In this document: in pieces, positions 14,751-60,846 of the stretch
Position numbering within the stretch: position 1 is the first letter of the stretch
Layout: every line of letters starts with the position of its first letter
NCBI GenBank assembly: GCA_039881145.1
Contig: JAYKKI010000007.1
Coordinates: forward strand, 44,764,501-44,828,500
Reading direction: 5' to 3'
Source: Druceiella hillmani
Lineage: Eukaryota; Arthropoda; Insecta; Lepidoptera; Hepialidae
DNA length: 64,000 nucleotides
Notes under the pieces: generated by a model
Seen by the model: the letters and a program-made list of their open reading frames with translations, nothing else
Told to the model about the DNA's origin: nothing
Database searches by the model: none
Program-made: the position numbers and the translations under genes

Positions 14751-15440
14751 GAGCGCGTATTTTTGTATATACCTAAGTAAGTCATCGCTATTTCTGTTTT
14801 ATGAGTGCGTGACCTTCCAAAATGATTTAAGAAAATTCTTATAGATTTAAATGTCATTGATTGGCAAACTTTTAATATTCCTTATAATATTCGTATAGAC
14901 ATGTCACATGTGTTAACGTCTACATTATTATTAAAAATGATTTCGAAAATTGTAAATCTTAGAGAAAACAACTTATGTCAAAATATAATGTGTCACATAT
15001 TAAAATTTTCGTGTATAACCATTGGTGCGTATCACAACTGGTACTTAAAATTTATCAGTGACAACTATTTAAAGCATAGTATTAAACTGGATTTCTTATA
15101 TTTTTACACAAGGATTATTCAGGTATTTCACAAAAGAAATGTGCATAAATATTATAGACATTCATTCTTTTGTGTATTTTTAAGGAAAGGTGCAACAAAC
15201 AACACGTTGCTTCAAAACTTCAGTGAATGCCACGGGAAAACTAGTTAGGTACATAGCCCATTGTTAAATTTTTAATAACCCCATTGGTACAAATTTTTTA
15301 TTTTTGTTTACACTGGCCTAACTTTGTGATTGTTTTAGCTTCTTAGAACATTTTTTATTATTTTCCCATTTTCACAAGATTATTCACCAAGAATTTTACT
15401 TATTCTTAATTTGTGGTTCCTATAGCCAAGAAGTCTCAAA
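14751..15440. other. AT-rich sequence ending in a Helitron-like terminus
   Basis: At 15222-15245 the sequence GTGAATGCCACGGGAAAA plus CTAGT resembles the CTAG terminus at 13545-13548, so a decayed non-autonomous Helitron may end at 15244. The 115-codon open frame at 14901-15248 runs into this terminus and has no recognisable protein similarity, so it is probably not a gene. Confidence 0.4.
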
Positions 15441-15441
15441 G

Positions 15442-16600
15442 ATGAGTAAATTTCTCAAAAATAGTATTGAAACACAATTTGTCATCATTGTTCTACATAA
15501 TGAAAGCAAATCTGAAATAATTACCAACTTTTTTTTTTTACTTAAATTAACGAAGTCTTCTGTTCATCACTCCATTGTACGATACAAGAAAACTGACTGC
15601 AATCAAGATCATCCGCGCTCCGAGAGGCCGAGAGCTGCCACTTCTAGTGAGGACAAATTTATTATTATTACCACCAAGCAGAATAGATGCCTAACAGCTC
15701 CAGAAATTTGCATTGAAGTCAACGAATCTCGATCGAAACCCGTTTCGGTGACTACAGTCAAAAGACGATTACGGGATGCTTAGTTGTTTGGTCGTATTGC
15801 TGTCCGAACACCTAAGCTAAAGCCACAAAACAAGAAGAAACGGATGCAATGGGCCCTTACCCGTCGAGAATGGACAAAATATTTTAAAAAAGTTCTTTGG
15901 AGTAAGGAATCAATATTTGAATTATTTGGTTAAAAAAAAAAGAATTTTCGTTCGATGTAGCGCCGAAGGAAAAATATGCCAGATTGTGTGGTCTCAACCG
16001 TTCAAAACGGTGACGGTTCTATTATGATCTGGAGCTGCTTTTCTGGTTATGAAACTGGAAATTTGTCAAGAATTGAAATAATGTTCTGGACTAAATTTAA
16101 TCAGTAATGAATTAATTTTTCAACAAGATAATGATCCAAAACAGCTCAAGAATATGTAGAGTTTACTTAGAAGAGAAGCAATTGAAAGGTGTGTTGAAAA
16201 ACATGGTATGGCCATATCTCAACCCGATAGAGTCCCGATCTCAACCCGATAGAACGTTTGTGCTCGATCGAAATGTTCATAATCGACTCTCCTCTTCACA
16301 GGTTTTACAAGAAAGCTGTAAAAATATCTCACCAGAGAGAATATATAAATTGATAGCTTGAACGTGAAAATTGATAAAAAAATCTAATTAAATGCAAAGA
16401 GGGATATTTCGATAAAAAATAAGTGAAAAGTTTTCGTTTTAATTATTGGTAATGATGTATATTTTAATGTAATTAATCTTTAAGTTAGTGCATTAATATT
16501 ATAATTAAATCTTTTCTTCGTGTACTTTAAAGATGCTGAGTTTTATTTTATTTATCTATTTTTATTATGGTGACCTCAAACTTTTGACCGACAGGGTATA
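15442..16600 (+). pseudogene. Tc1-family transposase relic
   Basis: Tc1 transposases cut and paste their own element. Readable in order: the N-terminal HTH (ISKSSV-like LTKSSVHHSIVRYKKT), the linker PRSERPRAATSSEDKF, the second HTH segment TAPEICIEVNESRSKPVSVT and TVKRRLRDA, then LFGRIAV. The catalytic parts follow: VLWSKESIFELFG near 15895, where the first Asp is Lys; FQQDNDPKQ near 16121, second Asp kept; and a WPYLNPIES segment near 16207, where a ~20-bp duplication (ATCTCAACCCGATAGA twice) disrupts the region before the catalytic Glu. DRNVHNR and ISPERIYKLIA close the reading. Stops and several frameshifts rule out function. A right terminal repeat is present at 16568-16597. The left one was not found. 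Confidence 0.85.
16568..16597 (-). repeat. Tc1 right terminal inverted repeat
   Basis: Read inward from the end it gives TACCCTGTCGGTCAAAAGTT and then TGAGGTCACC, the usual terminal sequence of this Tc1 subgroup. It is followed by TATA, consistent with a TA target. Confidence 0.75.
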
Positions 16601-16645: not shown

Positions 16646-16712
16646 CTAGAAAGATTCTCGAAACTTCTAGAAGATTTCACTGCAGAGTACAAATAGACCA
16701 AAGTACAGTCAG
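16646..16712 (+). promoter_or_regulatory. heat-shock-promoter-like module
   Basis: TTC-TC-GAA-AC-TTC-TA-GAA-GA-TTT at 16657-16679 is a run of five alternating heat shock element units on a 5-bp grid, four of them exact. Another TTC-TA-GAA pair sits just upstream (16646-16653), one base out of phase. A TATA-like TACAAATA (16688-16695) and an initiator TCAGTT (16709-16714) follow, about 23 nt apart. The downstream leader has ATAAAAAC, also present after the similar promoter at 54.8 kb. It lies just in front of the mariner relic at 16748. A promoter function is inferred from motif order only. Confidence 0.45.
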
Positions 16713-25303: not shown

Positions 25304-26532
25304 AAGGTGTCCAGTGGCAGATTTCAATGTTTGAAAAATTGTAAAAAAAAACTACACCTCTAATACAAAGTAGGTTTATTTTAACTTTATAACAACAAAT
25401 GCGGATTTCATTTTTTAAAAACCACGTTTTCGAAATGGCGGCCATCGAGTCTGACACACTCTTCGAGTCTAGCACGCATGTTTTCAAAAACGTATTTGCA
25501 GAGCGACTGGAGTATCCTACTGACTTCGGCGGGAATATTTTCTTTAAATTGTGTCACAGTGCTCGGATTTGTTTTGTAAACGGTAAAACGGATTTTAAGT
25601 ATCCCCATAAGAAAAAGTCACATGGGCTTAAATCGGTTGACCTAAGTGGCCACGGTGCGGTACCGTTTCGAGATATGTTTTTTTCTGGAAATAACTGCCG
25701 CACTGCATTCACGGACACATTAGCAGTGTGAGCTGTGGCCCCGTCCTGCTGGAACCATGCATTTTGGTTGAAGGATAGACTATTCTGTAGTTCTACTCTG
25801 AAAGAGTAATTTAACATCTGGGCATATCTCTCCGAATTGTAAAGGCTCTTGATGCAGTTGTCTTGGGTTGTGGACATCCCAGTAACGAAAGTTCTGCTTA
25901 TTCACATATCCTCCAATGTGAAAGTGAGCTTCGTCACTAAAGAATATGTTGCCCATCCGGGTAGCAGTATGAAATCTCAACAACATCACCTCCTCGTAAG
26001 TTGTTCTTAATTCAAAATCAGAATCGTGTAAATCTCGAACAATTTGAATTTTATATGGATGGAACTTGATTTTTTTTTGCATTATTACCTATAAAGTTGA
26101 TTTCGGAATTCCCAATATCGATGAATGTGTACGCAGTGATAAACGGTGGTTTTCAACGACAGAAACCATAACACGCTCGACATTTTCATCCGTGGCTACC
26201 AATGGTGTAGGTCCTGGCCTGGGCCTATTTAATGTTGATCCTGTAGCTCTGAACCTTGCTACCCATGACTGAATGAGGTTGATCGATGGTCCATCACGTA
26301 ATCGACGAATACTGTAACGATTATTAAATCGACGGCGTGTTACAGACAGCGAAAATCCACTCGAAATGTACGCCTCGACGGCAAAAGCGCGGTGCTCTCC
26401 ACTCCACTGTTCCATGGCTACTAAAACATCCGCACCGCTTGCGCTTCTAATGACGCCCCCCTCGCCCCTCTTATGGGTTGCGTTCAGAAACTATGTTTGT
26501 TCAAACTTTGAAATTTGCCACTGGACACCCTG
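25304..26532 (-). mobile_element. nearly complete IS630-Tc1-mariner-group DDE transposon
   Basis: The terminal inverted repeats match in GGTGTCCAGTGGCA followed by ATTTCAA: left 25304-25337 (reads AAGGTGTCC after TA at 25302-25303), right 26498-26532 (ends GGACACCCTG before TA at 26533-26534). The TA dinucleotides fit a TA target duplication. The ~1.23-kb element holds one transposase relic on the minus strand (25407-26415). It is the best preserved transposon in the window, but the transposase has a nonsense codon, an internal deletion and a frameshift. Confidence 0.85.
25407..26415 (-). pseudogene. DDE transposase pseudogene
   Basis: Starts at ATG 26415: MEQWSGEHRAFAVEAYI, the N-terminal HTH and linker, then GIPKSTL and a TAG stop (26089-26091) where the family has Trp. 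The same frame continues MQKKIKFHPYKIQIVRDL and FFSDEAHFHIGGYVNKQNFR (first catalytic Asp). After HNPRQLHQEPL a segment of some 40 residues is deleted and the frame shifts. Then WFQQDGATAHTANVS (second Asp) and WPLRSTDLSPCDFFLWGYLK (third Asp) follow, 36 residues apart by my count. After another shift QFKENIPAEVSR, ENMRARLEECVRLDGRH and ENVVFKK end the protein. This is a full-length reading with all three Asp residues still present, but it is not translatable. The family is very common in insects. I do not assign a subfamily name because the D-D spacing is from manual counting. Confidence 0.9.
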
Positions 26533-31520: not shown

Positions 31521-32912
31521 CATATCAATAATAGAGCACTTAGTTGAAAAAAGTTTTAATTTATAAATATTATAGTATAGTGCGTTAATTGTATGAATCT
31601 TACTGCTGACTTAATGAAAACGTTTAAAGATCCACGCAAACGAAGTTACCAACAGAGCCATAATTTCAAATAAACTTGATATCTAATGATACATTCCGAA
31701 GACTAACAAAAAATTTTACTTACTTACCGCACTTTTTTGGAGAAATCAATTACGGCACTATCTAGACCATCATGTGATGATATCAATGGAAATCTTTAAC
31801 ACAGTACAGCAAGTCAATATGTGATTAAATCGTTTGTTTTTGTTTCTTTTATATTTGGAAAACATTCGTACATTGAGCTTTCAAACACGATTCTCTATGT
31901 TTTCATTAATTAAGAAGACGATATCACAAATTTGAAGTTAAATTGTAATTTATTTAAAATATTTATGAGATGGAAAAACATGCATAAGCATTTAAACATG
32001 GTTTGAATGGCTAAGACAGTTTCAAAACAAATATTTGAGACGAACAAAAACTGTTGAAAATTCTCGGAAAAACACATCTTTTATGTTCCTCGTAATACTA
32101 TAAAGAGTATACTTTTTCTATTTTATTAATAGCACCGTAACAATATTTAATGATGCTATTCTAAACATCGAGATTGTGTTTTTTTAATGTTTTTTTCCGC
32201 TTACGACTTACTTCATTTATTTCAAAACAGTTTTCTGCAAAATGCGCTCAACCTTTGCTAAAATTTATTTACTTGCACGTAATGTCGACAATATTATATC
32301 TCACGGGCAAACAAACCTACTTTCTCGGTCCAGTGACGGACTTTGTCGACGATGGGTCTGTATTACTTTTCGCCCCGTTTGCTTGGTAATCTCTTTGTAG
32401 TTGTTTCGATATAAGGAGCCATTATTATTTAGCATTTATTTTTTTTTAAATAAATAATAACTGTTAAAAATAATTAGTTATTATTTGTTTAATGTAGCAA
32501 TAAATGCCTACGAGAGGCAACAAAATTTTCCTTCTTGCATAAGGTTTATTCAATTGTTTTTCATTGTTATTTGTTTTTCATTTTCATTGTTATTCAATTG
32601 TGTTTATTCAATTGCAATATAGTATTGCTTAAGCAAAATTTTTATAAATAATGAGTGATTTTAAAAAGCTTAGTTTAGATAATAGAGCTAATTAAAAATT
32701 AAACTTGAAAAAATTGGAAATATGTATAAATGATGAGTCTGAAATAAGTAAATTTAAAAAACTTTTATGTATCATGCTTATGTAATATATAATATGGATT
32801 TTGAATAAAAACTGTAAACTTTTTTAAAATATGGCTAAATTATTCCTAAGTGTGTAAACTATTTTCTATTTATTATATTCAGGCTTCTTAATAAATACAA
32901 AAGTATTTACCC
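31521..32912. other. AT-rich non-coding sequence
   Basis: A less AT-rich segment at 32280-32395 (open frame 32174-32389) has no recognisable similarity. The remainder is AT-rich, with a small TTCATTGTTATT repeat near 32560-32610. Confidence 0.45.
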
Positions 32913-33849
32913 AATTCAATTCTACCATGATTGAAAATTATAATTATTTTTAGTGCGAAAAATAATTACCATTTGGCTCTCAAACACTACGCGTTTGACA
33001 ATTACGCTTATTTAATAGGGAATTTTCCGAATTCAATTCTACCATGATTGAAAATTATAATTATTTTTAGTGCGAAAAATAATTACCATTTGGCGTTCAA
33101 ACACCACGCGTTTGACAATTACGCTTATTTAATAGGGAATTTTCCGAATTCAATTCTACCATGATTGAAAATTATAATTATTTTTAGTGCGAAAAATAAT
33201 TACCATTTGGCGCTCAAACACCACGCGTTTGACAATTACGCTTATTTAATAGGGAATTTTCCGAATTCAATTCTACCATGATTGAAAATTATAATTATTT
33301 TTAGTGCGAAAAATAATTACCATTTGGCGCTCAAACACCACGCGTTTGACAATTACGCTTATTTAATAGGGAATTTTCCGAATTCAATTCTACCATGATT
33401 GAAAATTATAATTATTTTTAGTGCGAAAAATAATTACCATTTGGTGCTCAAACACCACGCGTTTGACAATTACGCTTATTTAATAGGGAATTTTCCGAAT
33501 TCAATTTTACCATGATTGAAAATTATAATTATTTTTAGTGCGAAAAATAATTACCATTTGGCGCTCAAACACCACGTGTTTGACAATTACGCTTATTTAA
33601 TAGGGAATTTTCCGAATTCAATTCTACCATGATTGAAAATTATAATTGTATTTAGTGCGAAAAATAATTACCATTTGGCGCTCAAACACCAAGCGTTTGA
33701 CAATTACGCTTATTTAATAGGGAATTTTCCGAATTCAATTCTACCATGATTGAAAATTACAATTACTTTTAGTGCGAAAAATAATTACAATTTGGCGTTC
33801 AAACACCACACGTTTGACAATTACGCTTATTTAAGAGGGAATTTTCCGA
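32913..33849 (+). repeat. satellite array, 8 x 117 bp
   Basis: The motif TCTACCATGATTGAAAATTA (T to C variants in some copies) begins at 32921, 33038, 33155, 33272, 33389, 33506, 33623 and 33740, always 117 bp apart. Each unit also has TTTAGTGCGAAAAATAATTA, GCGCTCAAACACCACGCGTT and ATTTAATAGGGAATTTTCCG. Inner units differ by one or two bases. The first and last are more diverged, as expected when a local array is homogenised by unequal exchange. A short hairpin (TCAAAC...GTTTGA) lies in each unit. No coding potential. Confidence 0.97.
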
Positions 33850-34940
33850 AGGTCATTAGGAGATGATTACTTTGCCTGCAAATCTATTACTTGCTGAAGT
33901 GACTATGCCAAAAGAAAATTAAAATTAAGAAACTTAATTTTTGTTGCCCATTGATTATATGGGAAAAACAGCATTTATTATCAGTGTGTTCTTAATTTTG
34001 TTACTTTGAAATTTCACTATTATTCAATACATTTTAGTGTTGCATTCTGTACAATATAGATAAAAGAACTTAATGTAGCTGTACATCTATCTTTAAGTCC
34101 TTATATTTATTTCATTTGCTTCTATCTACGTGAAGGAGTAGAGAACCGTTTGAATAATATACGCATATACAATAATAATAACATACATATACATACGAGT
34201 ACATACAACTAAGCAAGAGAACTATATGGGTAACTATCAAAAATGGTGAATAATCGCATTTAGCAATGAAAGTAGAGTACAACGTTTTTAATAAATTAAT
34301 TATGCAAACCGGTTAATTAAACAGAAAAAGAGCTGCAGTTCGATTTACATCTGTTAGGTATAAATAATTATATATAATATATAATAAATATTGTATACAT
34401 ATTCTATTTACGAATTAACTTTAATTACCTTGCTAGTTATTAAGTTCACATTATCGCTTTCTTCCAAGAATAACTAATCACCTGTTTCCTGACAATTCTT
34501 CCAAAACAACGGACATTTGTCGAACTTTGCACAGTAAATATAACAAACAGGACCTGAGGAAAACAGAATTCTTCTTCTCAATACAGGTTTTTAAACGAGT
34601 GGTTTTTTACTCTTTCAACTAACAATACACATGTCCATAATAGTTTTCTTCTTTCAGATTTGATGACTGATTTTGTTAGTTTTTGGGGTGCTGGTTACGG
34701 GAAAAAAGCTAATAAAATTCAGACATACAGACAACAATGAATAAATTCTCATAAATAATCAGTTAATTGTAACGTAATTAACTGACATTATTGGAAAAAA
34801 GGGTGGATTTTTAGGTCATTTGCTAAAGATCTCATTTAACTTAAATCATTAGAAGAGGGTTATTGAGGGTAGATCAATAGATTTTTATATAAATAACATC
34901 ATTGTTTTTGCAAAATTAGTACTTCCGTGCAATTAGCAAA
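33850..34940. other. AT-rich non-coding sequence
   Basis: No gene recognised. A stretch of TACATATACATACGAGTACA near 34180-34205 is low complexity. Confidence 0.5.
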
Positions 34941-50935: not shown

Positions 50936-51139
50936 ACAGTCCTCAGCTTTCCGCGTCCAACCGCTCCTCAGCTTTCCGCATCCAACCGACTAGTTCATCT
51001 TGCCAAAGGGTGTAACACACTGCGCTTCGAAGTTTGTGGTCTACACTCGAGAACTCGTCTACACCATCTTATTTGTTATTGGTTCTTCAGCAAATATGGA
51101 GTCATTGCATAATGAGTAGTCATTATATTTACAATAATA
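50936..51139. other. short less AT-rich stretch between two elements
   Basis: Contains a 22-bp near-duplication (CCTCAGCTTTCCGC, CATCCAACCG; 50941-50990). It may still be retrotransposon coding sequence, but I could not read a frame. Confidence 0.3.
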
Positions 51140-51329
51140 CTAGCTGCGGTACCCGACTTCACTCATGGAGTTGATATGATATTGTGTTGGAATAAAAGGA
51201 TAAACTTTAAAATATAAGAAGTAAAAAATGTTTATTGAAAATGTATTCCAACTATTTACAGTACTTGTTTATAAACAACATTTTTCATTTTGTTATACGG
51301 AATACATAAGGACACATTTTTCGTATTTC

Positions 51330-54300
51330 CTACTCGAGAGCAAGCTACGTATAGTTAAACGTGAGAAAAGCTGGGATCTTTGATGTTGATGCCGCAATGT
51401 TTTAAAGTTTGTCCTTGCGCTTTGTTAATTGTAAAACTTTAGGCTAATTTGATTGTAAACTGCAGTCTTTTAAATTGGAATGGCAGTAGTTTTCTGGGGA
51501 TAAATACTGTGTGTCCTTGGTCTTTTCCAGCCATAAATTCGGATTCACCTTTGACGATCACCCCTCGATCGTGTCGATCAGTTTGCATATTTTCTCTTCA
51601 CCGGGATTTTTTTTTAATGTTAAAGTTGATTATTGTCGACAATACTACTTAGCTCGACAATACTACTGGTTGTTATTGTCGACAACACTATTTTTAGTTG
51701 CCAAAATTACCTTCTCAAATAGCCACTCTGGACTGGTACAGTTGCGAACAATGTTTGGGTAAATTTGGTCGATGAGTTCGTTCTCAGTAGTGGCTATGTT
51801 GAGTTCAGTGAGGCCGGTCGTATGATCAGTAAGATATGTGCCTTTGCCTATTCGTAGAAGTTTTTGAGGAAAATGTGCTGTTGTTTCATTAGTCGCATTA
51901 TTTATATGTATGGCCAGAGATATTATTTTTCAAGCATGCATTAATTTCGTCTGCTGGTGTTAACTTGGAGAAAACTGGAAGTGTTCGTCGAAAATCTCCT
52001 GAAAGTATGAATAGACTTCCTCCCATCACTTCAGAGTCTCCTCGCAAGTCTTGTAATATTTTATCTATGGTTTCGAGTGATTTTTCAATGTGCCTTTGTG
52101 TATTCGTCCCAGAAGATAATTTTAGTTTGTTTTAGAAGTTCACCCCGTACAGATGCTCTTGAGATTTTATATATTGAACGGTAGTTATAGGGTGGAATGG
52201 GCAGTTTCTTCTCCTTCCATAAATATGTGTTTTCCATGAGTTGTTTAGCATGTGTTTCTGCCAGCAATAAATTTATTAAAAACATTTTCGCGGTTCCGCC
52301 TGGCGTGTCCGAGTAAATACTTTGGCCAGTGTTGTTGTTAACCCGGTACATGATAAGATTGTAATTTTTTTTATTGTCATTAAAAAATGGTTTGTTGTGA
52401 GCAATGTATTGAAGTATTTAATTGGTGTTGTACCTTTTTCCTTTGTAATTTCGAAGTCTAGCACACTGGAAGAATCTTTTCATAATACTGGCATCCCAAA
52501 TTGTATAAAGGTATATTTTTTTGTTCCTAAACATTTATTTTCTAGGCGAATGAGTGCTTCATTTAAATTGTCGTCGTGGAATTTCATAGCCAGTTCTGGA
52601 TGAGATTGTCACTCATACTCTCTTTAAAGAAGTTCCATAGCTGTTTGGGATTCGATGGGTAACTTGTTTTTAATATTATGGCGAATAAGTCTCTGAATTT
52701 TTCAGCTGAGGCTGTGAGTGAGGCTTCTTGTATTAATTTCCAGTGGTTGTCGTTTTCCAGTAGGCCTGAGCGTTGGCATGTTTATTTCTACGTCTGCCAT
52801 AGGTAACCATCAACAGTCTTGAAACTTGTTTATCACCGTATTTCATGTACCAACATATAGAGATAGAAACATTCGGGGTTGTTCAAATGTGCGATGTTTA
52901 CTCGGCCTACTGCGTTAGTTTTCATAATTCCTGGATGATCCTTTACAGGAATTGCGTGTTTTCGTCGTTGAAAGATTTATCTTGTTGTGTTTCACTTATA
53001 ATAGATAAGGATGTCGACATGTAATAATGTTTTCGTGAATGGATCCGTTTGGCACAGTTGGAAAAAAGCTGTTAATGTTGTGTTCTTAGATGGTTTGCTT
53101 GTCATTTTTCCGGGGGTGTCTTTTGTGAAGTAAACTCTCTGTCTATTCTCAAAATGTACTGCTAGGTATTAAATAGTTGGTTAGTGTTCGTGTATGGGAA
53201 AACCAAAAATCCACCACATTGATTTCTTACTGTTTATGTATCTTTCCATTTGGTACATGAGGATCTCATCGTTTCTATTTGGTTGTTGGCTGTCTATGGC
53301 TATTTGAAATACTGCCATGTCATTGCTTTTGTCGCGTCTCGAAGGTGGGTGTATTCTTCTGTGCATAATTTCTTCCGATTCATCTTATATAAGCATCCGT
53401 TCCGCTTCTATTTTTGTATATATATCTACCAGGAATTGTTGGAATACACGGCGATTGTTGAGAATGCGATTGTATATTTCATTGTTCCTAATCGTTAAGC
53501 GGTAAGCATAAAACTCCTTTGAAGTGACTCCTAAAACTCCTTTGTTTGTTTCTTCGTCTGTTTCAGGTCAAATTTTGTTTCACATTAAAATGATATCCGT
53601 CCTCGCCGTGCAAAGATATTAATGGATGTTGGAGTGCATAATATGAACAGTGTGTCTCTGCAATGCGTCGTAGTCCTTCTGTTCTTCGTTGTACAATTAT
53701 GGCACGGCTTGTGTTTTCATTGTCCACAATTACGATGGCGACTTCGTCTATATGAGGTGCATTGAATCGACGTTCGTGTTTTTCATATGGTCTCTTGTCG
53801 GCTCGAATTATAATATTACAGTCATCAGAAATCATTTGGTCTAGTGTTGTTTTGAATATGTGAAGAAATCAATTGTATTCTGTACATCCTGGATTATTTC
53901 CCGTCTCAATCCACTGATATTTGCGCATTATAGATCAATTTCTGTTTCTTCATTTCCGATGAAATATACTTGCAGAAATTTGTAGTCTTCGTTGGATAGT
54001 AGTAGTAATGTTCTCATTTTGTGATAGATTTGTCCTTGGATGGAAAAAACATAATCGATTTCATCTTTGTTAGTGTTCATCAAAGTGACACCGAAAGAAG
54101 TCATTTGGAAGCAGACGTTTTAAGCTTTTATACTTTGAAGAAAGTGTTTTGATTCTGAAATTTCCCCTGGTCAAGTAATTTAGAAATTCCTGCGGAGGTG
54201 CTTCCGTTGATAGTAATGAATTCCATTCATGCAACTGATTCCTGGTGTTTCTCTACTGAATTTGTTTGCATTGCAATATTGGCAGATGTTATCCATTTTT

Positions 54301-54600
54301 CGATTATGGCGTATTTGTGTTTGTTATATTCTTTCGTCGGGTCGTAGTAGAATGCTTCATTTGTTCGGTTGTACTGTTTACTTGTCCTCGTCCGCGCTTC
54401 CCGTATGTTCACTGGTGGCTTGTGTTCGCAGTCTTTTATTATAAGATTGTGTTGTAATTCTTGATTCTTCAATTCATTCATTTTGTTGCTCTTCAGTTTT
54501 TCTGCTTCTCACCATGCTCGTTCGTTAAACGTGCTTCGCGCTCTTCGATTGTTTCGTTTTTTCGCTGTTATTTTTGTTTCCGCCGTTTTGCTTCAGAACT
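51330..54600 (-). pseudogene. Helitron Rep/helicase pseudogene
   Basis: A Helitron protein combines an HUH nuclease (rolling-circle Rep) with a Pif1-like helicase. Minus-strand blocks in order: EARTRTSKQYNRTNEAFYYD and PTKEYNKHKYAIIEKW (54.4 kb); IIRADKRPYEKHERRFNAPH, AETHCSYYALQHPLI, HGEDGYHFNV (53.8-53.6 kb); a SKEFYAYRLTIRNNE-type block; MAVFQIAIDSQQPNRNDEIL, FGFPIHEH (53.3 kb); PSKNTTLTAFFQLCQTDPFT; LFAIILKTSYPSNPKQLWNF; then the helicase: Walker A DTPGGTAKMFL (usual GGTGKT mutated), IIFWDEYTKAH (Walker B), SGDFRRTLPVFSKLTPADEI, and TINKAQGQTLKHCGINI followed by YVACSR. Between EYTHLRDAT-like sequence and MAVFQ some 250 residues are missing, exactly the HUH/Tyr catalytic core. Several stops and frameshifts. 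Not functional. Confidence 0.9.
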
Positions 54601-54797
54601 GGCAAGATCTCCTGCTCTTTTATGTTTGAACAATCTATAAAACATAAATGAAATGAACTTTCATTAAGAAATACACTAAGTACACTTTAAACCCTTTTCA
54701 CATTTTATTTTCGTTTTATTTTATGTCACTGTATCACTTCGATTACTTGCACTTCACTGTTTGTTTTTATTCACTTACTCAACTTTACTGATAAGAA

Positions 54798-54848
54798 ACT
54801 GACGAACTATGGATCTTGCTTCATATACTCCCAACCAATACCCATTGG
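54798..54848 (-). promoter_or_regulatory. core promoter: CCAAT palindrome, TATA-like box, initiator
   Basis: Read on the minus strand: CCAAT/ATTGG palindrome (54835-54848), TATATGA (54827-54821), TCAGT initiator (54802-54798). From the first T of the TATA-like box to the A of the initiator is 27 nt, the spacing of a TATA-Inr promoter. A second TCAGT lies 10 nt downstream. The transcript would start with an A-rich leader (GTGAATAAAAACAAAC, then GTGAAGTGCAAGTAATCG) and run into the Helitron frames. Confidence 0.6.
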
Positions 54849-54873
54849 TCCCCACCCCTCCAAAAAAAGCGTC

Positions 54874-55089
54874 GAATGGTCCACAATGTTCCCGAACATT
54901 CCACAACATTTGAGAGTGTTCTGGAATGTTCCACAACAATCTGGGATGTTCCCGATCGTTCCACACTATTCTCACGAACATTTCACAATATTCCAGAATG
55001 TTTTGGAATGTTCTCAAATGTTGTGGAATGCTATCGAATACTCTCGAATATTCTGAACTATTCTAGAAATTTCTAAATGGCGAAACTTC
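54874..55089 (-). promoter_or_regulatory. heat shock element array (~40 units)
   Basis: Starting at 54874, GAA and TTC triplets alternate every 5 bp: 20 slots to 54971, a 2-bp phase change, then 21 slots from 54976 to 55078. By my count 22 of 41 slots are exact GAA or TTC and most others match 2 of 3; the GAA/TTC alternation is never broken. Perfect three-unit elements (TTCCCGAACATTC at 54889-54901, TTCTGGAATGTTC at 54919-54931) meet the HSF binding consensus. It sits about 45 bp upstream of the TATA-like box, the usual place in hsp promoters. It could also be described as a decayed ~10-bp minisatellite. Confidence 0.7.
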
Positions 55090-55883
55090 TAGCCCTTAAG
55101 TATACCCTTTAGGTAAAAACGGGAATCTTCTTCATGGATGGGGGATAGAGAGCTATCACACCATATAACTCCCTTGATCCTATCGGGACTCGTTTCTGAG
55201 TTTTAACGACACTCACATTGTACACTTACTTTTATAATATATATTGATTATATTGACAATTAATATTATATTTAACCCCTTAACGATTACTTTTGAATAT
55301 TTTGAAATCTTAAGTATTTATACATATGCGATTTAATATGTTTTATGCTCTACATCACATTGAGCACTGCATTCTTTAAGAACTATTGTATGTAACTTGC
55401 TTGACTGCTTTCCTCTACAAACGGACAACTTAGCACCAACCTTTCAATCACCGTACTCCGTTTTTCAAAATGTATTGCCGCCAAATCATATCGAATTCAA
55501 AAGCGCTTTTATATTGATCAACGCCGCTACTTGCTGGTTCCTATATTGAAACATTTTGTATTTCATTGCTAGTAAATTGTAACGGTTCAACCGTTTACAA
55601 ATATTGATGCCACGAATGACGCAAATTCTACCGCAAGATAAGTTTTAAGTCCCATTTTATATCCCTCTATTCGCGTGTTGATACCGGAATTTGTCTTGCA
55701 AATTTCATTTAATTTTTTTATTCCAACAAAGTAACTTTTATTCCCTTAAATTAAAAGCAACGAATTTTGCTCGACGTTGTACTTGAGAATTGTCGCCAAT
55801 AACTCGCTCATTAACATTATTTATAGTTTTCGAACAAATTCAATGTGAAAAAATATTATCGATTATCGCGCTTTTAGGGTATC
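55090..55883. other. AT-rich non-coding sequence
   Basis: No gene recognised. The 5' end of the Helitron may lie in the first 150 bp. Confidence 0.4.
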
Positions 55884-58900: not shown

Positions 58901-59355
58901 CAAAAGGCTTAACATGCTATCGGCACAAATTTATGTTTTAAATTACTTCGACAAACATATGTTAAAATTGTTTGCCTTCTGGTTAGAAGCGCAAGTTGGC
59001 GCCTGATAAATATGTCGATGCTAGCAATTTAATTCCGCTGCGGATGAGCGCAACTAGACTGCAATTTTACCACTGCAGTGGAAGAGTTAGCAGACTGCAC
59101 CGGAAATTCGATGTGAAAATGTCGCCAGTTAGCAGATTACCACTACAATAATGAGAATAATCATGTATTAAAATCAACTCAACGTGTAAATATTTGACGT
59201 AGATAAAATTTTCAAACGGAAGATATTTTGCAGAAAGTTTCCAATCTATTTGAATGGCGATCAAACTAGGCGAGTATATCATTTGTATCTCATTTTTATG
59301 CTAAGAAAGCGTTACTACATAAAACAAATCAGTTAAATAATCAAATTATATATTT
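55986..59355. other. long AT-rich non-coding region
   Basis: Contains a GACAGACAGACAGATCAGGA copy of the dispersed repeat at 58735-58810 (ending TGAGGTACAAAACCCTGAAA) and a three-unit repeat at 58566-58690. A less AT-rich patch at 58980-59110 (GCGCAAGTTGGCGCCTG; CACTGCAGTGG) is unrecognised. No gene found. Confidence 0.45.
58566..58690 (+). repeat. three-copy short repeat
   Basis: CGTTAACTACTGAGTTATCT and close variants, with TTTTGAAC preceding the later two, occur near 58567, 58604 and 58659. Confidence 0.8.
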
Positions 59356-59575
59356 AAAGGTTATTGGGAAAAAGCTGTTGGGGAAATGTGGTTTACTCAT
59401 AAAGAAACTGATGTTTTCAAAAATGTCGGGAAAACTCAGCATAAAAATGTATTTGTTTGTTATTTCGTACCTCACAAGAGAAAACGTAGCCCTTATTAAA
59501 TCACTCACATGTCTCTCTGTCTGTCTGTTACAGCCATTTTTTTTTGCAAACCACTTTACGTTATAACTTGAAATT
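59356..59575 (-). repeat. 220-bp repeat, inverted copy 1
   Basis: Reverse complement of 60609-60828 with the same length and only a handful of substitutions. Contains GTACCTCACAAGAG, a CACTCACATGTCTCTCTGTC core and TTACAGCCATT. Homology with the copy at 7445-7810 continues beyond 59575 to about 59725 (CACTCAAAAATATTTGAATC; GTATCGTTCGAAAGGACTAG), so this copy is longer than the partner at 60609. The open frames in both copies are by-products of the repeat. Confidence 0.9.
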
Positions 59576-60504
59576 TTATATAATATTAAACATATTATCT
59601 CGCACTAACACTCAAAAATATTTGAATCTAAATTTTAGGGAGAGCAAATTAACTAATCAATTTTTTTTTAATTCTACATGTAGCGTGAGGTATCGTTCGA
59701 AAGGACTAGTTATAAGGGTCTCAAAAACATTTAGGTATTATATTTTCCGAACATACTCTAACCAAAATTATGAAAAAATAAAGTTTTTAAAAGCTCAGGC
59801 AAAGATTGTAGGAAAACTAAATTATGATTCCACATATCGTAATTTTCAAAATATGCATCATGTTTTAGAGTTTTTGAAAAATATAGTTAAAAGGTATTGT
59901 ATTTACTTTGTAAAAAATCAATATTTGTAATTAATTCAATAGAATTACTATGTATCCTTAAATGTTTATAATTACAATACCTAATTTACAAACATTACGT
60001 CCCAACAGTTATGAAAGCCTCGTAACGCGATTTCTACTCGTTCTTGCCAAATGTTTTTACTCTAAAGAGAGGTGTAACGATAAATGCATCTAGAAACAAA
60101 TGACATAAAATATAATGAACATTAAGCAAATGAAAATAAACAAATTAACCAAATGATACAACAATGAAATAATTTCTAATTTTTTTCTAACGCAATCACG
60201 TAGTAAGTTTATATAAGCAAAATATTTTTATCTTAATATATTTTTAAAATAAGCAATATTAATCAGATTGGCTTGTAATTAAGATACATGATATCTAAAT
60301 GTTCATATTCAAATCTCATTTACGGATAGCAACTAGACAGAAATTAATAAATGATTGCTTCTATATACACTCCTAGTAGATGGGATAGAACAGAATTAAA
60401 AACACCGTTGCAATGTTTAACATTGGCTGCGGACGTTAGTTATATTTAAACTTCCAATTTCAATTTCAATTGAAAATTATACAGGTTGTTTGCTAGTTGA
60501 AAGT
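59576..60504. other. interior between inverted repeat copies
   Basis: The first 150 bp continue the repeat of copy 1. A 128-codon frame (59544-59930) starts inside the repeat and has no recognisable domain. It is rich in Lys, Asn and Tyr and is most likely chance. The remainder is AT-rich. Confidence 0.45.
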
Positions 60505-60846
60505 GGGTTAGAGCTTAAGCCATTTACAACATTTTAAACCATACATGTCTTTGACGAAGATTATTTTTTTGTTGCTATTTTAAGGTTTTCTTATCAAAAA
60601 GTCAATTCAATTTCAAGTTATAACGTAAAGTGGTTTGCGAAAAGAAATGGCTGTAACAGACAGACAGAGAGACATGTGAGTGATTTAATAAGGGCTACGT
60701 TTTTTCTTGTGAGGTACGAAATAACAAACAAATACATTTTTATGCTGAGTTTTCCCGACATTTTTGAAAACATCAGTTTCTTTATGAGTAAACCACATTT
60801 CCCCAACAGCTTTTTCCCAATAACCTTTTGATAGTTAATTCCTAAT
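60505..60846 (+). repeat. older repeat, filled copy (carries the 220-bp insertion)
   Basis: 60505-60608 and 60829-60846 together match the reverse complement of 61346-61478 (TACATGTCTTTGACGAAG, TTGATAGTTAATTCC). The 220-bp unit sits between these two parts and is absent from the other copy. Confidence 0.75.
60609..60828 (+). mobile_element. 220-bp repeat, inverted copy 2, inserted in an older repeat
   Basis: Begins TTTCAAGTTATAACG and ends CCCAATAACCTTT. It is 220 bp, as is copy 1. Its boundaries are fixed by the unfilled site at 61346-61478. Relative to copy 1 and the 7445-7810 copy it lacks the upstream part, which would fit 5' truncation of a retroposon whose 3' end is the CAATAACCTTT side. 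No poly(A) tail or clear target duplication was seen. Confidence 0.75.

Follow-up and report, generated by a model that had tools for sequence, protein, structure and literature searches.

A dead Helitron copy from a family with a 42-slot heat shock element array in its predicted promoter

The 64-kb stretch of Druceiella hillmani DNA analysed here (called the window below) contains a dead copy of a Helitron that belongs to a repetitive, arthropod-type family, which we designated family A. The promoter region shared by the copies of this family carries an array of 42 alternating heat shock element (HSE) slots, and we consider it quite probable, on the evidence of the sequence, that this array gave HSF-driven transcription of the Rep-helicase gene on heat.

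Results

The Helitron copy in the window

Helitrons begin with TC, end with CTRR and are inserted between A and T, and they encode proteins combining a Rep (HUH) domain with Helitron_like_N and a PIF1-type helicase. The element found in the window has TC and CTAG at its termini and lies between A and T (Table 1). Comparison with 20 full-length copies showed that homology to the window stops between 55243 and 55255 in all 20 of them. The 3′-end could be matched in 12 of 21 copies, seven of which terminate in CTAG or CTAA, with T as the next letter in six of these seven. A palindrome of 16–20 bp near the 3′-end, capable of forming a hairpin, has been described as a hallmark of Helitrons (PMC6544945), and folding of the 3′-end of family A gives a possible stem, 17 nt long and containing a single mismatch, 2 nt from the end (−6.7 kcal/mol, calculated for the family sequence only).

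The preliminary description of this DNA, made from the sequence without database searches, had assigned Helitron frames to the minus strand, and the protein domain search bore this out: two pieces of a PIF1-like helicase scored above the Pfam cut-off, accompanied by a weak Helitron_like_N match. The copy is broken, as its frames are interrupted, TTG replaces the start codon and the TATA box is mutated. A 198-aa piece translated from one copy (L019) had 195 protein relatives at an E-value of 0.001 or better. Among the 120 relatives listed, all those with an organism name were from arthropods (such as Eumeta japonica, Bactrocera, Hypothenemus, Lasioglossum, Macrosteles and spiders), nematodes were absent from the named organisms, and three bore the name "Helitron helicase-like". 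The nearest named relative in this list is that of E. japonica, which is 76% identical across 67% of the query.

The window is AT-rich (30% GC), and the genome comprises 2.586 Gb. Several other features were noticed in the window, including a tandem array of a 117-bp unit at 32905–33850 (8.1 copies, 97% matches), remnant frames resembling mariner/Tc1-type transposases at 15322–15783 (plus strand) and 25554–26490 (minus strand), which were recognized by eye from the translations, and two near-identical translated frames, each about 80 residues long and lying on opposite strands (59341–59604, minus; 60538–60831, plus), which point to an inverted repeat with a length of about 240 bases.

Table 1. 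Coordinates of the Helitron copy and its parts in the window
Feature	Position	Strand	Evidence and remarks
Entire family A copy (4108 bp)	51140..55247	-	Ends TC...CTAG common to other copies; coding broken
Flanking letters, minus-strand reading	A at 55248; T at 51139	-	A, then TC...CTAG, then T
5′ terminal TC	55246..55247	-	TC in 14/21 copies; 13 of those 14 preceded by A
Distal half of HSE array; GAA/TTC alternating in a single register over 20 slots, 12 of them exact	54976..55073	.	Chain score 22
Proximal half of HSE array; 20 slots, 10 of them exact, 2-base shift relative to distal half	54874..54971	.	Chain score 19
CCAAT-box position: CCAATGG in window copy, CCATTGG in family	54842..54848	-	CCATTGG in 18/40 copies
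TATA box position: TATATGAAG in window, TATATAAAG in family	54819..54827	-	Family form exact in 21/40 copies
TCAGT initiator-like motif, predicted start region	54798..54802	-	TCAGTT in 25/40 copies
A-rich leader, predicted 5′-UTR	54634..54800	-	Family leader 168 nt, 0 ATG
Family start-codon position	54631..54633	-	ATG in 28/40 copies; TTG in window copy
Remnant frame, weak Helitron_like_N match	53385..53567	-	Pfam PF14214, E 0.007, below cut-off
PIF1-like helicase remnants, two overlapping frames	51898..52417	-	Pfam PF05970, E 7.4e-7 per piece, above cut-off
Helitron 3′-end, last letters CAGCTAG, possible short stem	51140..51164	-	Family 3′-end matches and fold

Structure of the HSE array

An HSE to which HSF can bind is made up of at least three nGAAn units that alternate with a spacing of 5 bp. 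In the window, GAA and TTC alternate with this spacing over positions 54874–55073, where 22 of 40 slots are exact and the slots are distributed between two registers. The best chain found in 50 Markov-1 sequences of the window's length (64 kb) scored only 8, and 16655–16672 is the only other stretch of the window that reaches a score of at least 8; the alternation over about 40 slots given in the preliminary description was confirmed by the scores of both halves. The majority sequence derived from 40 family A copies has an unbroken chain in a single register, which comprises 42 nGAAn/nTTCn slots over 208 bases and scores 52, against a maximum of 7 in 3000 random sequences with the dinucleotide make-up of the array. 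Twenty-six of its slots are exact and the remaining 16 have two of the three bases, that is, 110 of 126 slot bases match. The best chains of the individual copies score 15–49 in all 40 family A copies aligned, the window included. Since the majority sequence keeps one register, the register break seen in the window is a change of the window copy; register breaks of their own occur in some other family A copies as well. The length of the array, which had been regarded as exceptional, is a feature common to the family.

The logo of the units in the majority array reads R-GAA-Y. Minor letters were found at 16 of the 126 slot positions versus 45 of the 84 flanking positions (Fisher p 4e-10), and the flanking positions vary as A/G and C/T in near half-and-half proportions, while the core positions vary little. 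This pattern is the one to be expected had HSF contacts shaped the units; neither plain duplication nor selection for hairpins would spare the core.

Promoter layout downstream of the array

Read from its 5′-end, the family sequence consists of a terminus of about 174 bases, the 42-slot array, CCATTGG, TATATAAAG, TCAGTT, the leader, and an ATG opening an ORF whose product begins MPKRKRGGD. The TATATAAAG box, conserved exactly in 21/40 copies, lies 41 bases past the array, thus the HSEs adjoin a TATA-like box, and the transcription start itself is predicted. An hsp-type promoter layout on the Helitron, as put forward in the preliminary description, is supported by this order, although its details apply in part to the window copy only. 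TATATGA (extended by AG) and TCAGT are both present in the window, and the distance between them was given as 27 nt, which is correct for the window copy; in the family it is 35 nt in 33/40 copies and 27 nt in 2/40, the window being 8 nt short at this place. The usual distance from a TATA box to the start is about 30 nt, and the start site is uncertain because the family spacing exceeds this value. Similarly, the CCAAT palindrome exists in the window copy, and the family form at this position is CCATTGG. The A-rich leader was confirmed for the whole family: its 168 nt contain no ATG, against 4.4 expected from shuffled sequences, only 1.1% of which have none.

Copies of family A in the genome

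Genome matches with up to three mismatches numbered 545 for the 5′-end, 562 for the core promoter and 580 for the 3′-end, and each reversed control gave 0, which puts the family at some 550 copies. A search with the segment 54480–55300 as query, in which 40 of 1325 candidates were scored, returned 46 match pieces. Apart from the window, 39 long pieces showed 76–81% identity over approximately 670–780 of the 821 query bases; for 20 of the copies 6.5 kb on the coding side was included, and for the other 19 the sequence was limited to the 5′ part; together with the window they make up the set of 40. Since this query contained the array and could have acted as a bait for it, 20 further copies were chosen by an exact 5′-end instead. 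These were hand-picked from 43 listed mismatch-free 5′-end matches outside the aligned set and do not represent a random sample; the array is present in 17 of the 20, whose best chains score at least 11, one (L105) has a piece of score 8 and two (L096 and L102) have none. The preliminary description proposed to look for the joined promoter–Helitron unit elsewhere in the genome; the array was found in 40/40 aligned copies and in 17/20 of those selected by their 5′-end, and the reservation that no other Helitron copy might carry it fell away.

The mean identity of the copies to the family sequence is 0.89–0.92 depending on the region. Between family A copies, the slot bases are no better conserved than the spacers (permutation p 0.41), which suggests that the copies decay neutrally and gives no sign of a present function. 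The copies are old, and at present they look like decaying relics.

Sister family C

HSE arrays were also found at the same place in a second group of elements, family C, which we regard as an older, diverged sister family of A. A search in which 40 of 106 candidates were scored yielded 57 match pieces including the query, the others showing 66–85% identity, and the 5′-end of family C is related to that of family A. HSE chains score 9–26 in all nine family C copies examined (eight chosen for having 5′ pieces, and L078), with a null of at most 6 in 100 trials each. The majority sequence of family C has an HSE chain of 40 and a GGTATATATAGG box, and the strict TATA pattern is present in 2/9 copies. 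When the majority sequence of A was aligned with one C copy, 97/124 slot positions, 37/82 spacer positions, 122/174 positions of the 5′ terminus and 129/218 positions of the promoter and leader were identical. The spacers agree less than the adjoining terminus and are thus more diverged. These values are suggestive, but no proof, of an HSE code kept while the sequence of the array diverged between A and C, because the aligner itself favours slot matches. The location of the array inside the element termini, and its occurrence at the same place in the diverged family C, indicate that the array has long belonged to the Helitron itself.

HSE motifs elsewhere in the genome and in viral contigs

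Five perfect alternating units occur at 413 places in the genome versus 25 for the reversed pattern, and seven perfect units occur at 19 places versus 1. Twenty-four of the 413 five-unit places were examined, of which 4 were program-extracted and 20 were hand-picked toward repeated or overlapping motifs, so the following numbers are not random shares: 4 belong to family A, 6 to a group designated B, 4 to family C (L061 loosely), 5 to a group designated D, and 5 were left unassigned. The group B repeat (L055/L077, L056, L059, L062, L064 and L065) contains a run of about 10 HSE slots. In one member, L077, Helitron coding sequence lies downstream of the 10-slot run and matches family A in two pieces, at 53% and 40% identity; the other members, classed here simply as repeats, have an internal GTTCT-rich repeat. 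Members of group D (L052, L053, L054, L063 and L070), likewise classed as repeats, have perfect five-unit HSEs in a common stretch of about 100–340 bp. Four near-alike stretches of seven perfect units starting with GAAATTTCTTGAAA were seen on contigs C11, C27, C30 and C52, and perhaps represent another repeat family.

In viral contigs, nine stretches with seven perfect units were detected, the longest chain being about 10 slots, and no relatives of Helitron proteins were confirmed among 59 pattern matches in these contigs. HSF DNA-binding domains are encoded in the genome on contigs C1 (E 1e-22) and C8 (E 8e-18).

Discussion

The arrangement described above predicts that family A could bind HSF and be induced by heat. 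Under heat stress, HSF trimers of the host would bind side by side along the array, and the bound HSF would activate transcription of the Helitron Rep-helicase gene. Transcription raised by heat may have led to more transposition while family A was active, and the scattered copies could persist as HSF sites through which genes nearby would respond to heat, some of them perhaps still acting as heat-responsive enhancers.

The preliminary description proposed a different origin for the promoter, namely capture of an hsp70-like promoter and leader, which could have been taken over complete from hsp70 or another hsp gene of the host. For this proposal we compared approximately 1.1 kb upstream of five long open hsp70-family genes of the same genome that start at the first residues of the domain (L072–L076), a comparison covering hsp70 only. 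The hsp70 promoters of L072, L074, L075 and L076 resemble that of the Helitron in having a TATA box near the gene start and short upstream HSE motifs, and CCAAT boxes, identified partly by eye, complete the same order of parts (HSE, CCAAT, TATATAAG) in L075 and L076. Furthermore, local alignment to L074, L075 and L076 scores highest in the 3′ part of both leaders, and equally good alignments were obtained in 17/300, 2/300 and 2/300 shuffles, respectively. However, these leader matches are short and AT-rich (21–54 columns), no leader signal was obtained for L072 and L073 (p 0.17 and 0.20), and blastn across the promoters gave nothing beyond motifs, its best hit (E 0.003) being AT-rich and at non-matching places. 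The HSE chains of the hsp70 genes reach 10 in L075, 8 in L076, 6 in L074 and less than 5 in L072, with none in L073, compared with 52 in family A, and the diverged sister family C has HSE arrays as well. The claim of a captured hsp70-like promoter and leader is therefore not supported by the five upstream regions, where we found no alignable promoter homology, and we abandoned it as an explanation. Since the weak alignments fall in the leaders of both partners, we raised our estimate for capture slightly, but still consider it unlikely; a faint relation of the Helitron and hsp70 leaders may nevertheless exist.

Explanations that separate the array from transcription of the element have also been considered. 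A neutral minisatellite or self-complementary repeat, in which the alternation arose by chance and was kept as a hairpin or cruciform or by replication slippage, would account for the internal repetitiveness of the array (30-bp period in the window), for its imperfect inverted repeats with 52-nt arms of 75% complementarity, and for the lack of extra slot conservation between copies. We find this quite unlikely, since the flanks vary by transitions and the slot bases do not, and since in both Helitron families, A and C, a TATA-like box follows directly after the array. Selection for a hairpin or cruciform was ruled out by the pairing at the 12 best centres, where 76–83% of slot bases but only 19–63% of spacer bases pair, the latter being about half, as for random R/Y spacers. 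It is also conceivable that the array binds HSF for other ends, such as titration of HSF, opening of chromatin for rolling-circle replication, or as an enhancer only for neighbouring host genes. The far greater length of the array than that of the HSEs in hsp70 genes of the same genome, and the persistence of many copies with broken coding, would suit such a role, yet the position of the array in the family sequence, immediately upstream of the TATA box, the ATG-free leader and the start of the ORF, argues against it and makes it highly improbable. A promoter through which HSF controlled the Helitron's own Rep-helicase gene is thus the reading that we prefer.

Helitrons bearing HSEs have been described in Caenorhabditis, namely Helitron1_CE, Helitron2_CE, HelitronY1_CE, Y1A and Y4 (Garrigues et al., 2019, eLife, PMC6927752; Schreiner et al., 2019, PMC6765114). 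Helitron1_CE of C. elegans is induced by heat, and less so under hsf-1 RNAi, and its HSEs coincide with peaks of HSF-1 (PMC6765114, PMC6927752). According to a survey of UCSC metazoan genomes with annotated Helitrons, HSE enrichment was seen in Caenorhabditis Helitrons only, and high-density HSE clusters were absent from the other metazoan genomes scanned (PMC6927752). Family A and the nematode elements are alike in being rolling-circle elements whose HSEs are clustered and overlap, and whose copies spread HSEs through the genome. They differ in that the named protein relatives of family A are arthropod. Family A has a single-register array of 42 slots upstream of a TATA box. HSF-1 binding and heat induction were demonstrated for Helitron1_CE and are predicted for family A. 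A parallel also exists in plants: heat-responsive COPIA elements, among them ONSEN/COPIA78 of Arabidopsis, are activated by heat and have heat-responsive elements in their own cis-regulatory region (PMC5059998), but ONSEN is a plant retrotransposon and family A is a Helitron. Among the papers listed by full-text searches we found no HSE-bearing Helitron from a non-nematode animal, judged by titles and the beginnings of abstracts in a collection with most subscription journals outside its coverage. The term "heat shock" is absent from the main text of a paper on insect Helitrons (PMC6544945); of two other papers, one concerns C. elegans (PMC12062965) and one cites the worm work (PMC13104882).

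As the HSE-bearing Helitrons of that survey are confined to Caenorhabditis and the relatives of family A are arthropod, family A would extend the phenomenon to another phylum. It is an HSE-array Helitron like the known ones, likely from a further phylum, and its single-register array is unusually long. With somewhat less assurance, we lean toward the view that an arthropod Helitron lineage either independently evolved a 42-slot HSE promoter or inherited and kept rebuilding it, that the code survived the turnover of the array between A and C, and that hundreds of HSF sites were seeded in this 2.6-Gb genome. An origin independent of the Caenorhabditis HSE Helitrons is possible. The array of family A offers a natural 42-site substrate for studies of cooperative HSF binding. 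If true, the presence of the same device in a second phylum would suggest that coupling transposition to HSF is a strategy to which rolling-circle elements turn recurrently, and two questions would become testable: does selection on the transposon maintain the HSE arrays, and do such families repeatedly alter how their hosts respond to heat shock?
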